Positions 46,187-52,005 of a stretch of DNA of 64,000 nt are shown piece by piece (position 1 is the first letter of the stretch; each line of letters opens with the position of its first letter). The DNA lies in contig JAGNLV010000001.1 of the NCBI GenBank assembly GCA_017999435.1, positions 679,550 to 743,549 on the forward strand, written 5' to 3'. The translations under genes and the position numbers were made by a program. The notes below the pieces were generated by a model. It saw nothing but the letters and a program-made list of their open reading frames with translations, ran no database searches and was not told the origin of the DNA. Source of the DNA: Candidatus Zixiibacteriota bacterium. Lineage in GTDB: Bacteria > Zixibacteria > MSB-5A5 > GN15 > FEB-12.

Positions 46187-46567
46187 TCAATCAAAAAGCT
46201 CTTCAAGCTCCGGGTTGGAGCGCAGGGGGGCCCAGGCGAGCGAGAAGCGGTACTTGTCCCGGTATCCCAGGGCCTTGGCGATCAGGGGCGCGAACTCCGG
46301 GGGGAGGCAATCCCGGCGGTTGACCGCGTTGATGACCTTGAGGTTATTCCCGTAAATCTGATAGGTGTGCCGCGTGAAATACTTCTGGTTGCTGTCGATG
46401 AACTCCAGCAGCGCCAGCAGCGCGGCCAGGTCGCCGTGGTTGGCGTCCACCGCATCGAACGGCGCTTTGAACTTGATCCCGAGCTCCGGGATCTTGAACG
46501 ACACTACCACCGACTGGTCCAGCTGGCGGTCCTCCGGCAGATGAATCGACCCGAAGTAGCAGTCCAT
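46187..46567 (-). CDS. Small conserved-looking protein, possibly RNase H-like fold
   Basis: 126 aa from ATG 46567 ('MDCYFGSIHLPED'). Not recognised. The order of a short strand pair, 'DANHGDLAALLALLEFI', 'TYQIYGNNLKVINAVN' recalls RNase H-fold proteins (helix after an acidic residue, then strand and 'D/N' helix), but the catalytic acids are not all present. It is 34 bases upstream of holA on the same strand, so it may be the first gene of that operon. Confidence 0.55.
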   Translation of the reverse strand: MDCYFGSIHLPEDRQLDQSVVVSFKIPELGIKFKAPFDAVDANHGDLAALLALLEFIDSNQKYFTRHTYQIYGNNLKVINAVNRRDCLPPEFAPLIAKALGYRDKYRFSLAWAPLRSNPELEELFD

Positions 46568-46816
46568 GAGGGCGGAGAGTGCAAGGGGCGTGCCCGGCCG
46601 GAGCGGGCGGCTAAACCCCGGTCGGCGGTGCAGTTGAGCGCGGGCGGCGGGGCCGGGAGTGTGCAACCGGACCGCGCGGGGTTGCAGGGGAGCGGCCGCG
46701 CCCGTCTTCGGCGGCGGTGGTGTTTTTGTGCACAGCGGCGGTTCGGAGCGGGCCGGGGCAATCGCTTACCCGCCACCGGCTTCGTCGCAGATTGACTGTT
46801 GCGCCGGGACTTGTGA

Positions 46817-47467
46817 ATGCCGTTATTAGCGCCCATGACCAAGAATACCAAGCGGGCCAAGGCCAACCGCTACGTCGCCATCCTCAACGAAGACGACACC
46901 TTCGTCAATCTCGCCGGGCGCTACGAGTACCTCGAACTCCCCTACTACGTCTCGCAGGACTACGAACACAGCCGGCTCCCCATCCGGCCGACGTGCAAGG
47001 AGATGCTCGACGCTTACATTGTGCCGCTCTTCCTGGAACGGGCCAAGCTGGCCGGCCTCGACGTGCCGGAGTACTACGTGACCAACGGCTACTTCGAAGC
47101 GCCCGCCATCGTCGACTCCATCAACCCGTTCATGTCGCGGAGCCGGACGGTGCTGAAGATGTCGCAGCAGAAGTCGGTGTCGAAATCGATTACGCGCAAT
47201 TTCACCTACGCCGCCTGCGTGCAGGAGATCCCGCCCGAGGCCCAGATCGAGCACTTCCGCGCCGTCCTCGGCTGGAGCGTCGCCGCCCGCTACCGCGACT
47301 CGGCGGAGAAGATCTGGCGGGTGTTCCAGATCCCGCTCGCCCGGGTCCGGGTGCTGCGCACCTACGACGACCGCATCCTGCTGAGCAAGATCAGCCCGCT
47401 GCTGTACAGGGACCTGAAGCAACGCGAACTGGAGTACCTGGAGAAGAAGATTCGATGGGAAGAATAG
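46817..47467 (+). CDS. RLAN-domain protein (RimK-like ATP-grasp N-terminal domain), separate polypeptide
   Basis: 216 aa (ATG 46817; ATG 46835 is possible; neither has a strong ribosome-binding site). It matches the RLAN pattern: 'RYVAILNEDD', 'YLELPYYVSQDYEHSRLPIRPT', 'SRSRTVLKMSQQKSVSKSITRNF' and the Arg-rich end. In most genomes this domain is fused to the N-terminus of a RimK-like ATP-grasp ligase. Here it ends with a TAG that overlaps the ligase gene by 13 bases in another frame. Likely it helps the ligase bind a substrate. Confidence 0.8.
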   Translation: MPLLAPMTKNTKRAKANRYVAILNEDDTFVNLAGRYEYLELPYYVSQDYEHSRLPIRPTCKEMLDAYIVPLFLERAKLAGLDVPEYYVTNGYFEAPAIVDSINPFMSRSRTVLKMSQQKSVSKSITRNFTYAACVQEIPPEAQIEHFRAVLGWSVAARYRDSAEKIWRVFQIPLARVRVLRTYDDRILLSKISPLLYRDLKQRELEYLEKKIRWEE

Positions 47468-48345
47468 GCGTCTACATCGAGCGCTACACCATCACCCGGT
47501 CCGATGAGATGGAGGCGCTCATGCGCTTCGCCATGGTGGCGCGCAAGATCGGGCACGAGGTGGACTACCTCTTTCGTCCGGACGTGGCCAAGATTCCCCA
47601 GTACGATGCGATCTTCATCCGCGCCCTGACCGATCCGCTCAACACCTCGTACGTCGCCGCCCGCATGGCCGAAATGCACGGCAAGCGGGTGATCGACGAT
47701 CCGCGCTCGATCTACATCTGCTGCGACAAGGTCAACATGTACGCCCACCTCCAGCGCGAGGGGGTCCCCATGCCCGACACGCTCTTCCTGGAGGAGAAGG
47801 ATCTCACGCGGGCGCGCGCGGCCCAGGTGTTCGAACAGCTCGGCAGTCCGGTGGTTCTCAAAGCGCCCAACAGCAGCTTCTCGATGTACGTGGAGAAAGC
47901 GGAGACGCCCGAGGCCTTTGTCCGTGTCGGCAACCGGTTCCTCCGCCGCTCTGACCGGCTCGTGGCCCAGCGCTTCATCAAGTCCGATTTCGACTGGCGG
48001 GTCGGCATCGTCGCCGGCGAAGTGCTCTACGTGTGCCAGTACACGATCCCGCGCAAGCGCTGGAAGATTCTGACCTACGCCGAGAACAACCGCGCCATTT
48101 CCGGCCCTGTCAAGGGAGTGCCGATCGAGAAGGCCGATCCGCAGCTCCTGGAGGTCGCCCTGGCCGCGGCCCGCGCCATCGGCGACGGCCTCTACGGGAT
48201 CGACCTCAAGCAGGTGGATGACGGCTACGCGGTCATCGAAGTCAACGACAACCCGACCATCAACGCCGGCGAAGAGGACCAGGCCGCGGGGGACCTGTAC
48301 GAGAAGGTGATCCGGTTCCTCGTCGAGGGCAAGACGACGCCATGA
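47455..48345 (+). CDS. RimK-like ATP-grasp ligase
   Basis: 296 aa from ATG 47455, with GGAG about 10 bases upstream inside the RLAN gene. ATP-grasp features: Lys136 in 'PVVLKAPNSSFSMYVEK', 'LVAQRFIKSDFDWRVGIVAG' and the metal-binding 'IEVNDNPTINAGEED' (Glu262, Asn264). These enzymes join carboxylates to amines through acyl-phosphates; RimK itself adds glutamates to ribosomal protein S6. The neighbours point to a peptide or amino-acid conjugate product. The stop overlaps the next start as ATGA. Confidence 0.88.
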   Translation: MGRIGVYIERYTITRSDEMEALMRFAMVARKIGHEVDYLFRPDVAKIPQYDAIFIRALTDPLNTSYVAARMAEMHGKRVIDDPRSIYICCDKVNMYAHLQREGVPMPDTLFLEEKDLTRARAAQVFEQLGSPVVLKAPNSSFSMYVEKAETPEAFVRVGNRFLRRSDRLVAQRFIKSDFDWRVGIVAGEVLYVCQYTIPRKRWKILTYAENNRAISGPVKGVPIEKADPQLLEVALAAARAIGDGLYGIDLKQVDDGYAVIEVNDNPTINAGEEDQAAGDLYEKVIRFLVEGKTTP

Positions 48346-49457
48346 GCGACTCCGCCGCCCGTCTCCGCCTCGGCGCCCACCGCGATCTCGCCGGCCTGGT
48401 GGCGCTCGAAGAACGCGCCTTCGCCATCGACCGCTTCCACGAAGAGCAGATCGAGTATTTGCTGGAGGAAGCCAACGCGACCACGTTCGTGGTCGACCTT
48501 GGCGGGCGGATTGTGGGGGCCGCGTACATGCTCTGGCGCAAGGGAGCCCCGGTCGGGCGCCTCTATAACATCGCCGTCGACCCCGACATGCGCGGCCGGG
48601 GGCTGGGCCAGCGGCTGCTGGACGCCTGCCGCCAGGAGGCGGAGTGGCGCAACTGCACGACTCTGTCGCTCGAGGTGCGCGTCGACAACGCCGGGGCCAT
48701 CGCCCTCTACCGGCGCAACCACTTCGAGGCCGTCGGCCGCCTCCCGAAGTACTACGAGGACGGTGCTGACGGCGTGCGGATGACCCGCCCGTTGACGGCG
48801 GGGCGCCCGGAGAGACTCCGCCTGAAAGTCCCCTACTACGCCCAGACCCTCACCTTCACCTGCGGCCCGGCGGCTCTCATCATGGCCATGAAGTACCACC
48901 GGCCGGACCTCGAGGATGACCGGCTGCTCGAAGTGACCCTGTGGCGGGAGGCGACGATGATTTTCATGACCTCCGGCATGGGCGGGACCGGACCGTTCGG
49001 CATGGCCCATGCCGTCGTCGACCGCGGATTCTCGGCCCGCGTGCTCCTTTCGAAGAACCAGACCCCGTTCTTCTCTTCGGTGCGGACGGCCGACAAGCGG
49101 CGCGTCATCAAGCTCGTCCACGAGGATCTCCGCGAGCGGGCCTATCACCGGGGGATCCCGGTGTCCTACTATGATTTCTCCTTCGACGACATCGCGGTCG
49201 AAATGCTGCGCGGCAAAATCCCCATCGTGCTCATCAGCACTTACCAGCTCCACGGCGACCGGGCTCCCCACTGGGTGGTGGTCACCGGATTCGACCGGGA
49301 GTTCGTCTACGTCCACGATCCCTACGAGGCGGAGTACGGCGGCGACCCGCACCGGGCGCGCAACCTCAAGATTGATCTGCCCCTGTTCTCCCGAATGCGG
49401 CGGTACGGCCGCGACCTCTACAAGAGCGTCCTATTCGTGGGGCCGGGCGAGGCCTAG
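48342..49457 (+). CDS. GNAT acetyltransferase fused to C39-like papain-fold peptidase
   Basis: 371 aa with two domains. Residues 1-~150 are GNAT, with the acetyl-CoA loop 'VDPDMRGRGLGQRLL' (80-94). Residues ~160-371 are a papain-like peptidase of the C39 type: Cys174 in 'TFTCGPAALIMAM', His310 in 'APHWVVVTGFD' and Asp326 in 'VHDPY'. This fusion is known beside RLAN/RimK-like ligases, where it was proposed to trim and acetylate a ligase-made peptide. It is translationally coupled to the ligase and closes the operon. Confidence 0.88.
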   Translation: MSDSAARLRLGAHRDLAGLVALEERAFAIDRFHEEQIEYLLEEANATTFVVDLGGRIVGAAYMLWRKGAPVGRLYNIAVDPDMRGRGLGQRLLDACRQEAEWRNCTTLSLEVRVDNAGAIALYRRNHFEAVGRLPKYYEDGADGVRMTRPLTAGRPERLRLKVPYYAQTLTFTCGPAALIMAMKYHRPDLEDDRLLEVTLWREATMIFMTSGMGGTGPFGMAHAVVDRGFSARVLLSKNQTPFFSSVRTADKRRVIKLVHEDLRERAYHRGIPVSYYDFSFDDIAVEMLRGKIPIVLISTYQLHGDRAPHWVVVTGFDREFVYVHDPYEAEYGGDPHRARNLKIDLPLFSRMRRYGRDLYKSVLFVGPGEA

Positions 49458-49497: not shown

Positions 49498-49530
49498 AAA
49501 AAAGAAACCGGGCCCCGCGCGGAGCCCGGT
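49498..49530 (-). terminator. Intrinsic terminator of the M14 peptidase gene
   Basis: ACCGGGC/GCCCGGT stem with a 10-base loop, then TTTCTTTTTTG on the minus strand, 28 bases after the stop of the carboxypeptidase. Strong on this strand only. Confidence 0.9.
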
Positions 49531-49557
49531 CCTCCAAGTCATCAGTACGGTCGCGCC

Positions 49558-52005
49558 CTAAGGACAGGCCGCAGGCGGCTCGCCGCCCCGGAAGAGGTAG
49601 CCGACGAGCATGGTGAGGTCGGACACGGCCGGCCCGCCGTCGCCGTTGACGTCGGCGTGCGCGGGACATCCCGGCCCGGCGCCGCCGCGGAACAGAAACG
49701 CCACGAGCATGGTGAGGTCGCCGACCTTGATCGCGCCGTCGCCGTCGCTGTCGCCGCGGAGCGCGCAGCAGCAGGCGTCGCCGACCCCGTCGAGATCGGC
49801 GTCCGCCTGGTCGGCGTTCGCAATGAGCGGGCAGTTGTCGACGTCGCCGCAGTGGCCATCCGCGTCCCCGTCGTTCTGGGCGTCGTTCGGACACAGGTCG
49901 CAGACATCCCCGACCCCGTCGGCGTCCCCGTCCGCCTGATCCGGGTTGGCCGCGGCCGGGCAGTTGTCGGTGGGGCAGTCGTTATCGGGGTAGCCCGGGT
50001 CGCCGAAACCGTCGAGGTCGGAGTCGACACACTGGTACTCGCCGTCGGTGACGACGGTGGGGACAGCCGCCGAGAAGGGACCCCACTGGCCCTGGGCGTC
50101 CTGCGCGCGCACCCGGTAGTAGTAGGTGCCGGTCGGCTTGTCGGTGAACGCGAACGAGGTGTCGGTGAGCGCCGACGAGATCACCGTTTCGCTCGCGTAC
50201 CCTTCGACCGGCGTGATGTCGTCCACGTAGATTCCCTCGCCCAACTGGGACCCGTCGGTCTCGTACGACACCCGCAGGTAGACACTCTGCCCGGCGTACA
50301 CGGCGAGACCGAACGACGCCAGCGTCCAGCCCCCCGAGGACCCGGTGATCCCGTTGCCGCGGTTGTAGCCGTGGGGGTCGTCGTTGGTCGTGATGGTGCC
50401 GGCGATCGGCGTGAACGCCACCCCGTCGGTTGACACCTCGACGTAGGCGTAGTCCCAGCCGCTCTCGATGTCATACCAGACGCGCAGGGTGAGCACGTCG
50501 CTGGCGCGCACGGCGATCGTTTCGACCGACTGGATCCGGCGGGCGGCATTGTTGGCGGCCCCGGAGAAAAAGCTCGTGGGCGCGGAGCTGTAGCGGGCGC
50601 CGGAAATGGAGAACCCGTTCGAGGAGAAGTTGTCCCAGGCGTTGGCCTGATCGGTCGTGCGCCCGAAACCCTGCAGTTCCACCAGCTCCCAGAGCACGGC
50701 CGGGTTGAGTGTGTCGGCGAGGCTCCACTGCACGCTGTAGCCCGAGGCATCGACGGTGTCGTCGACCGAGACCGCCGGCTGCCCGGGCGGCATCACCTGG
50801 TACGGGTTGCCCGCGACCCGCGCGAGGAAGAGCGCCGGTCCCCGGTTCTCCAGGGTGAGCTGGTCGATCCGGCTCGGGTCGGGCCAGAATCCATCGGAGT
50901 ACCCCCCGATCTCGATCGAGAAAGCGTAGTTCTTGTTCTTGAGCAGCTGCTCCCCGTACCCCCAGTCGTCGGAACTGCCGTTGACGACATAGAGCCCCCA
51001 CGACGGCGTCGGCTCGTAGCCGTTGTAGGCCGCCAGGGAATCTCCCAGGATCCTGAACAGCGGTTCCTCCGGCGTGTAGATCTGGTCGTAGCCCCACGGC
51101 CAGAGCACGAGGTTCGAGTAGGAGTGGAAGTAGAGGGTGAACACGAACTCGTGGGCGCTGATGAAGTCCCGCATCACCTGGGTCTCGGGTTCGGAAAACG
51201 GGCCGGTTCCGCGGTAGGTGGCGTCGGAGGGAACGGGCGAGGACCCATCGTCGTCATACCCCCACTCGTAGCCGTAGTTGCGATTGAGGTCGATGCCGTA
51301 GGAGCCGTCGCCGTTGTTGCGGCGGTTCTTGCGCCACATCCCGCCGCCGTCCGGCTCGATCACCTGGTTGTAGTAGTAGCCGTCGGGGTTCACCACCGGC
51401 ACGAACCAGAGCTCCCGGCTGTTCACGAGGTCGGTCACCGCGGGGTCCGTGCCGTAGTTGTCGGTCAGGTAATCCATGAACCGAAGGACCGTCTCGGGGG
51501 TGATCACCTCGCGGGCGTGAATGGCCGCGGTATAGAGCACCTCCGGCTCGTCGGGTTCGTCGAGCTCCGGGTTGTCGGAAATCTTCATGGCGTACATCGG
51601 GCGTCCCTCGAGCGTGTATCCGATCACGGTTTTCGGGAAGACGATCGCGTCGTGGAAGAAGGCGATTTCATCCATGTACGCCTGGATTTCCGCGAGCGTC
51701 TTGTACCCTCCCATGTCGCGCGCGTGGTCGAGACGCGAGCGGTAGAAGGCGGCGACGTCGCCGTGGACTATTTCCGTGCGCAGCCCCAAACCCTCGAGTT
51801 CGCGGAGCTCGTCGGCCGTCGCGATGATCTCGATAAAGTCCTTTCCCTGCCAGACCACGTCGAGCCCCAGGGGGTGAAGCCCGGCGGCGTCCTCCTTGCC
51901 GTCGAGATAGACGCGCACCTGCATATCGGCGGCGGATACGGCGGCGGCGAGCACGAGCAGAAGCAGCAACGCGGGGACGGCCGTCCCCATGCGGTGAGAA
52001 GCCAT
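49558..52005 (-). CDS. Secreted M14 zinc carboxypeptidase with dockerin-like C-terminus
   Basis: 815 aa from ATG 52005 (GGAGG 5 bases upstream). Signal peptide to ~Ala26; propeptide-like region; M14 catalytic domain ~100-410 with zinc ligands His163 and Glu166 in 'IHAREVITPE', His294 in 'YFHSYSN' and catalytic Glu365 in 'FSIEIGG'. A beta-sandwich accessory domain and a fibronectin III-like stretch follow. Then come calcium-binding thrombospondin type 3 repeats (~690-765) and a two-unit dockerin-like module. It should cut C-terminal residues from proteins outside the cell. Confidence 0.93.
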   Translation of the reverse strand: MASHRMGTAVPALLLLLVLAAAVSAADMQVRVYLDGKEDAAGLHPLGLDVVWQGKDFIEIIATADELRELEGLGLRTEIVHGDVAAFYRSRLDHARDMGGYKTLAEIQAYMDEIAFFHDAIVFPKTVIGYTLEGRPMYAMKISDNPELDEPDEPEVLYTAAIHAREVITPETVLRFMDYLTDNYGTDPAVTDLVNSRELWFVPVVNPDGYYYNQVIEPDGGGMWRKNRRNNGDGSYGIDLNRNYGYEWGYDDDGSSPVPSDATYRGTGPFSEPETQVMRDFISAHEFVFTLYFHSYSNLVLWPWGYDQIYTPEEPLFRILGDSLAAYNGYEPTPSWGLYVVNGSSDDWGYGEQLLKNKNYAFSIEIGGYSDGFWPDPSRIDQLTLENRGPALFLARVAGNPYQVMPPGQPAVSVDDTVDASGYSVQWSLADTLNPAVLWELVELQGFGRTTDQANAWDNFSSNGFSISGARYSSAPTSFFSGAANNAARRIQSVETIAVRASDVLTLRVWYDIESGWDYAYVEVSTDGVAFTPIAGTITTNDDPHGYNRGNGITGSSGGWTLASFGLAVYAGQSVYLRVSYETDGSQLGEGIYVDDITPVEGYASETVISSALTDTSFAFTDKPTGTYYYRVRAQDAQGQWGPFSAAVPTVVTDGEYQCVDSDLDGFGDPGYPDNDCPTDNCPAAANPDQADGDADGVGDVCDLCPNDAQNDGDADGHCGDVDNCPLIANADQADADLDGVGDACCCALRGDSDGDGAIKVGDLTMLVAFLFRGGAGPGCPAHADVNGDGGPAVSDLTMLVGYLFRGGEPPAACP

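Follow-up and report, generated by a model that had tools for sequence, protein, structure and literature searches.

A coupled RLAN, RimK-like ligase and GNAT-peptidase operon in a Candidatus Zixiibacteriota genome, a candidate system for making small peptides

Our study of a 64,000-nucleotide stretch of DNA from a Candidatus Zixiibacteriota bacterium (the window, meaning the whole stretch; the genome comprises 3.5 Mb in 7 contigs) identified an operon with a conserved core of an RLAN protein, a RimK-like ATP-grasp ligase and a GNAT acetyltransferase, to which a C39-like peptidase domain is fused. Tentatively, we favour the reading that a two-subunit ligase makes a short N-acetylated peptide and that the peptidase serves for its trimming or turnover. 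An earlier note on this DNA had predicted peptide making as the function of the operon, and this is a reasonable prediction. It had also described the three genes as a unit, and their open reading frames, strand, order and both overlaps were found as it had stated. The features are the following.

46817-47467, + strand: RLAN protein, 216 aa (PF14401); predicted degenerate ATP-grasp fold, probable non-catalytic ligase partner
47455..47467, + strand: 13-nt RLAN/RimK overlap, ATGGGAAGAATAG; the RimK start lies within the RLAN end (sequence)
47455-48345, + strand: RimK-like ATP-grasp ligase, 296 aa (PF08443); ATG start at 47455
48342..48345, + strand: ATGA overlap of RimK and GNAT-C39 genes (sequence)
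48342-49457, + strand: GNAT-DUF3335/C39-like peptidase fusion gene; ATG start at 48342
48342..48797, + strand: GNAT domain, residues 1-152, RimI/Naa10 type (PF00583, fold search, alignment to 2cnm)
48822..49439, + strand: DUF3335 / C39-like papain-fold peptidase domain, residues 161-366 (PF11814 match to residues 163-366)
48843..48845, + strand: Gln168 codon, oxyanion-hole position (66/66 homologues)
48861..48863, + strand: Cys174 codon, catalytic nucleophile (66/66 homologues)
49269..49271, + strand: His310 codon (66/66 homologues)
49317..49319, + strand: Asp326 codon (65/66 homologues, Glu in the remaining one)
49505..49532, - strand: terminator-like hairpin of 12 pairs with a T-rich tail on this strand, separating the operon from the convergent carboxypeptidase gene

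Pfam profiles placed all four domains over their curated cut-offs, in agreement with the family assignments made earlier for RLAN (33.8 bits against PF14401, cut-off 25, the match being limited to residues 111-209) and the RimK-like protein (47.1 bits against PF08443, cut-off 21). The fusion of a GNAT to a papain-fold peptidase is likewise borne out: the GNAT domain (70.0 bits against Acetyltransf_1, PF00583, cut-off 20.7) and a C39-like domain (DUF3335, 'Peptidase_C39 like', PF11814, 229.5 bits, cut-off 25) are present, and the true Peptidase C39 family (PF03412) scores 18.7 bits on the fusion protein, under its cut-off of 22. The score against PF11814, together with the Gln/Cys/His/Asp set, places the domain among the papain-like DUF3335 peptidases; Cys174, His310 and Asp326 are intact, as the earlier note had read them, and Gln168 occupies the usual oxyanion position. 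A double-glycine leader peptidase of the C39 type was rejected as an identity, given the sub-threshold PF03412 score and a peptidase that is fused to a GNAT and is not tied to an ABC exporter. NCBIfam cut-offs were reached by none of the RLAN, RimK and GNAT-C39 proteins.

Two genes flank the operon. Between holA and the operon sits a divergent minus-strand hypothetical gene of 159 aa (window 46187-46666), for which no Pfam family and no NCBIfam match over a cut-off was found. On the other side, at 49558-52005 on the minus strand and convergent with the operon, lies a secreted-looking M14 zinc carboxypeptidase in which Pfam identifies an InhA-like MAM domain, a thrombospondin type 3 repeat and a terminal dockerin type I domain, the last bearing out the dockerin-like tail described previously. 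The proposal that this enzyme could act in peptide turnover found no support: an M14 carboxypeptidase does not recur beside the operon in the 31 related loci, and the gene here is convergent past the terminator-like hairpin.

Conservation was analyzed in 31 loci fetched from the phylum, the window's own locus not being counted among these. RLAN, RimK and GNAT are adjacent and in this order in 31 of the 31, and we therefore conclude that the arrangement in the window is not due to chance. The C39-like domain is fused to the GNAT in 20 of these loci, and a lone GNAT of about 150 residues is found in 11; since these 11 triads lack a C39 domain, the peptidase is an optional part. The earlier view of a GNAT-C39 operon as the unit is consequently modified: the coupling stands, but the conserved core is RLAN-RimK-GNAT, with the C39-like peptidase frequently missing or substituted. 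The 13-nt overlap, counted from the RimK start to the end of the RLAN stop codon, recurs in 27/31 loci with ATG or GTG as the RimK start. Across 132 genomes of the phylum, PF14401 finds RLAN in 31 and DUF3335 is found in 22, and one extra RLAN, in genome G086, was detected by pairwise search and not by PF14401. With G086 included, 21 genomes have RLAN and DUF3335, 11 have RLAN only, one has DUF3335 only (its gene lies at a contig end) and 99 have neither, a clear co-occurrence of the two families (Fisher p 2e-15). The neighbour count in the 31 loci showed no gene beyond the triad that recurs widely, most of the remaining recurrent ORFs being antisense shadows of the triad. Most of the loci searched have no conserved precursor or target gene adjoining the operon; no tRNA or Rfam element was found upstream of it, and no relative of the fusion protein was found among viral contigs.

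The residues expected of active enzymes are conserved in each of the three catalytic domains, which indicates that these proteins are under selection as enzymes. In the ligase, K92, K136, D180, R182, D250, E262 and N264 are invariant in 110/110 RimK domains, and D250, E262 and N264 align with the D, E and N of RimK. Its nearest solved structures are RimK, LysX and ArgX, and the window genome holds only one further RimK-domain match, which is weak. The ligase falls below the RimK-family model TIGR00768 (82.2 bits, cut-off 143.4) and PRK10446 (43.7 against 331 bits); because the substrate-side residues of its family are unlike those of known ligases, the amino acid that it uses is not readable from sequence. 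In the peptidase, Gln168, Cys174 and His310 are invariant in 66/66 fusion proteins and Asp326 is kept in 65/66. In the acetyltransferase, E111 and Y138 are invariant in 90/90 GNAT domains, and E111 aligns with E103 of RimI, which we take to be the catalytic base. Structural comparison by VIA-align finds the GNAT nearest to peptide N-terminal acetyltransferases, the closest among the matches listed being Ard1 (Z 22.9) and RimI (22.8), followed by Naa10, NatC and Naa60. Its RimI equivalog score of 81.7 bits lies under the cut-off of 86.4, and a separate RimI elsewhere in the genome passes its curated cut-off with 115.7 bits; the fused GNAT is therefore not the housekeeping RimI.

The window RLAN was modelled by AF2 from a 41-sequence alignment with a mean pLDDT of 90.4. 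Foldseek against the PDB returned ATP-grasp enzymes as the best matches (E about 1e-7; 1.3e-7), and VIA-align gave Z scores of 13.2 to ArgX and LysX and of 12.6-12.7 to RimK, the alignments covering 191-193 of the 216 residues with an rmsd of 4.1-4.2, where models without a clear match typically reach best scores of 7 to 8. ATP-grasp proteins make up 50/50 of the PDB matches listed (Z 11.5-13.2), and residues 14-216 of the predicted model have the two-subdomain ATP-grasp fold. The assignment is purely one of predicted fold: hhalign of RLAN against RimK profiles gave no relation, with probabilities of 0.4-10% in three comparisons, the first with untrimmed alignments. Common descent of RLAN and RimK is plausible on this predicted structure, though it leaves no sequence signal, and RLAN is probably a degenerate ATP-grasp subunit, not a separate kind of fold. 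When the two proteins were aligned by eye along predicted elements, the strand carrying the ATP-binding lysine reads PVVLK in RimK and PVIVD in most RLANs, and no E-x-N was found at the position of the EVN strand; these differences suggest that RLAN is a non-catalytic subunit. RLANs of the window type have a conserved middle segment that fused RLANs lack, on account of which the Pfam model covers only part of the window protein, and this segment may make the resemblance to ATP-grasp enzymes easier to see.

Beyond the phylum, a RimK scan of named genomes confirmed 575 relatives, 80 of which were kept. These 80 include Alphaproteobacteria (Mesorhizobium, Kaistia, and Bartonella and Brucella relatives), Gammaproteobacteria, Planctomycetota, Verrucomicrobiota, Myxococcota, Balneolota, Bacteroidota and Deinococcota, and they reach the archaea in Methanomassiliicoccales. 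A GNAT-C39 or GNAT gene adjoins the ligase in most named loci (57/80 by a strict adjacency count). In Proteobacteria, RLAN and RimK are fused as one chain with GNAT-C39 alongside, which on Azospirillum and Tistrella replicons lies directly upstream. A second layout, found in other phyla, runs C39 > RLAN-RimK > GCS2 > N-formylglutamate amidohydrolase: at 12 loci a stand-alone C39-like peptidase is located just upstream of the ligase, followed downstream in most of them by a GCS2-type gene of the glutamate-cysteine-ligase family and an N-formylglutamate amidohydrolase gene, and a Legionella plasmid carries ligase, GCS2 and amidohydrolase. The tree of 110 RimK domains separates two deep clades with full support, one of 40 rows with the separate-gene kind, including the window, and one of 70 rows with the fused kind. 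On this tree the GNAT-C39 label forms clusters, yet about 20 changes are required, so the C39 domain must have been lost or gained many times.

Two plasmids are also of note. A Pseudomonas aeruginosa plasmid record (L085:7272-8861) has a fused RLAN-RimK with no GNAT or C39 alongside and with glutamate/aspartate ABC transporter, gamma-glutamyltransferase and asparaginase genes nearby, a hint of glutamate-type substrates. On a Sinorhizobium meliloti plasmid (L089:5001-5636), a stand-alone DUF3335-like peptidase gene stands behind an ABC transporter and adjoins asparagine synthase and formyltransferase genes, with no RimK within the stretch viewed.

Under the mechanism that we propose, the enzymes of the operon would work in the cytosol, where they would assemble a short peptide independently of the ribosome and cap it. 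The peptide bond would be made by one ATP-dependent ligase composed of RLAN and RimK, in which RimK supplies the complete ATP-grasp active site and RLAN, with its degenerate ATP-grasp fold, would have a part in structure or in substrate binding. The GNAT, which is of the RimI type, would acetylate a free alpha-amine, either that of the peptide or that of its first amino acid, and the papain-fold domain, if present, would hydrolyse or trim the product or recycle wrong products. We infer the binding of RLAN to RimK, the inactivity of RLAN, the small-peptide substrate, the cytosolic location and the order of the reactions. Synthesis of a small peptide is favoured by the triad in 31/31 loci and by the co-occurrence of RLAN with DUF3335, and a single two-subunit ligase by the other deep clade, where RLAN and RimK are fused as a single chain and many members have GNAT-C39 directly upstream. 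Since neighbouring genes elsewhere encode GCS2, N-formylglutamate amidohydrolase, amino-acid-decarboxylase-like proteins and a second ATP-grasp ligase, small amides are indicated rather than proteins, and the small-peptide reading also gains from the many loci without a conserved precursor or target gene.

Some of these neighbours occur at four loci from two genera (L056, L057, L064:1056-8828 and L065:1394-9172), where eight co-directional genes end in the RLAN triad, in the order TetR, AdoMet-decarboxylase-like, Acetyltransf_6 GNAT, ATP-grasp amino-acid-ligase-like, LysA-like PLP decarboxylase and triad. The block resembles a more extensive pathway for an amine or a peptide, with the triad as one part of it. 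The decarboxylase was found in 15/132 phylum genomes, 10 of these 15 with RLAN (p 2.5e-4), and it is absent from the window genome.

The main rival to the small-peptide reading is the modification of protein ends, in which RLAN-RimK would add amino acids to the C-terminus of a protein, the GNAT would acetylate an N-terminus and the papain-fold domain would remove the tag. We regard this as rather unlikely, and the sequence data cannot separate it from the small-peptide reading. The nearest characterised and solved relatives, RimI and RimK, act on proteins, which argues against a small peptide; RimB trims what RimK adds on ribosomal protein S6 and so reverses RimK action (PMC12239564), and the pairing of a ligase with a peptidase is kept in two operon types. 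Set against these points are the lack of a common target gene adjoining the operon across loci, the small-molecule enzymes next to other members, a peptidase that is dispensable and a ligase far under the curated RimK cut-offs. A pathway of the RiPP or graspetide-like kind, where ligase and peptidase would act on a small gene-encoded precursor, is very improbable. Among the Foldseek matches of RLAN, the graspetide ligase PsnB also stands high, and five genomes of one sister family carry a conserved ORF of 23-26 codons upstream of the RLAN operon, at a distance of about 280-440 nt (L069:6513-6593, L070 on the minus strand, L077:6080-6160, L078:7099-7179 and L079:3800-3871), with the pattern M-x-KYxxKCxCxRLxxxGRS; its first part differs mainly at synonymous sites between L069 and L070, inverted repeats were seen by eye downstream of it, and a search of 80 genomes gave no copy of it elsewhere. 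It is possible that this ORF encodes a leader peptide or a substrate, but it resembles a leader peptide at least as much. No ORF matching it was found in the window or at any locus searched outside that family, where no other conserved small ORF adjoins the operon either, and neither an exporter nor a C39 transporter recurs beside the operon in the 31 loci; a precursor might nonetheless be encoded elsewhere in the genome.

It is also improbable that the operon is a degradative or detoxifying set, in which peptidase and GNAT would inactivate exogenous peptides or amino-acid analogues and RimK-type ligation would be a form of conjugation. GNAT domains from known resistance enzymes give weak scores, and the distribution is patchy, with RLAN detected in 31/132 genomes; however, within the phylum neither transporters nor regulators show wide linkage, the defence library gave no match, and a ligase that is apparently active and strictly coupled suggests synthesis. 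An anti-phage defence system was rejected as a candidate, with no PADLOC match at 1e-3.

Returning to the synthesis of a small N-acetylated peptide, we would go further only with doubt: a heteromeric ligase of active and decayed ATP-grasp subunits, working with a bifunctional N-acetyltransferase/papain-fold enzyme, might make a new class of N-acetylated non-ribosomal peptide common to many bacteria and some archaea, and the split operon of the window type would retain the more complete form of the decayed subunit. A common metabolite or protein modification that has so far gone unseen may come to light through the operon, and because the operon occurs in genera amenable to culture and gene knock-out (Mesorhizobium, Azospirillum, Marinobacter and Luteibacter), the product can be searched for directly. 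The proposed RLAN fold is a structural hypothesis open to testing, and an RLAN that has its partner's fold in decayed form, if true, would explain the constant pairing of RLAN with RimK.

The operon can be compared with several known systems. RimK, the ribosomal protein S6 glutamate ligase, shares the ATP-grasp fold and the aligned D, E and N ligands with the window ligase, which differs in lying under the curated cut-offs, in its RLAN partner and in having EVNDNP instead of EVNxSPG. The carrier-protein amino-acid ligases LysX and ArgX have the same fold, are the top structural match of RLAN and are among the best sequence matches of the window RimK, but the LysX equivalog score is 76.5 against 275.6 and no recurrent small carrier-protein gene adjoins the operon. 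The N-terminal acetyltransferases RimI and Naa10 resemble the window GNAT in fold and catalytic Glu, whereas the latter is fused to a papain-fold domain and scores below the RimI cut-off. The GNAT NAT8L and the RimK-like RIMKLA together make N-acetylaspartylglutamate, and the genes for the osmolyte NAGGN likewise combine a GNAT, an ATP-grasp enzyme and a peptidase. The operon may work like the NAGGN trio by analogy of its three activities, but other families are involved, and identity with NAGGN biosynthesis was rejected, the window ligase reaching 24 of 569 bits with the N-acetylglutaminylglutamine synthetase model TIGR03103.

Closest of all is the RLAN / RimK-like ATP-grasp / GNAT-papain neighbourhood reportedly predicted by Iyer et al. 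2009 (Mol Biosyst 5:1636) with the same families and linkage. The window belongs to it by its RLAN domain, the coupled RimK-like ATP-grasp and the adjoining GNAT, which may be alone or fused to DUF3335. In its passage on the GNAT-DUF3335 fusion, a 2023 survey of papain-like enzymes cites Iyer 2009 and gives a possible function only (PMC10318531). Neither for DUF3335 nor for RLAN did our literature search, which left most subscription journals outside, find an experimental paper, in line with the earlier statement that product and role are not established. The window differs from the 2009 neighbourhood in belonging to a deep clade where RLAN and RimK are two genes and RLAN carries the extra middle segment; what appears to be added here is the predicted ATP-grasp fold of RLAN, a core with an optional peptidase, and a split clade with its 13-nt overlap.
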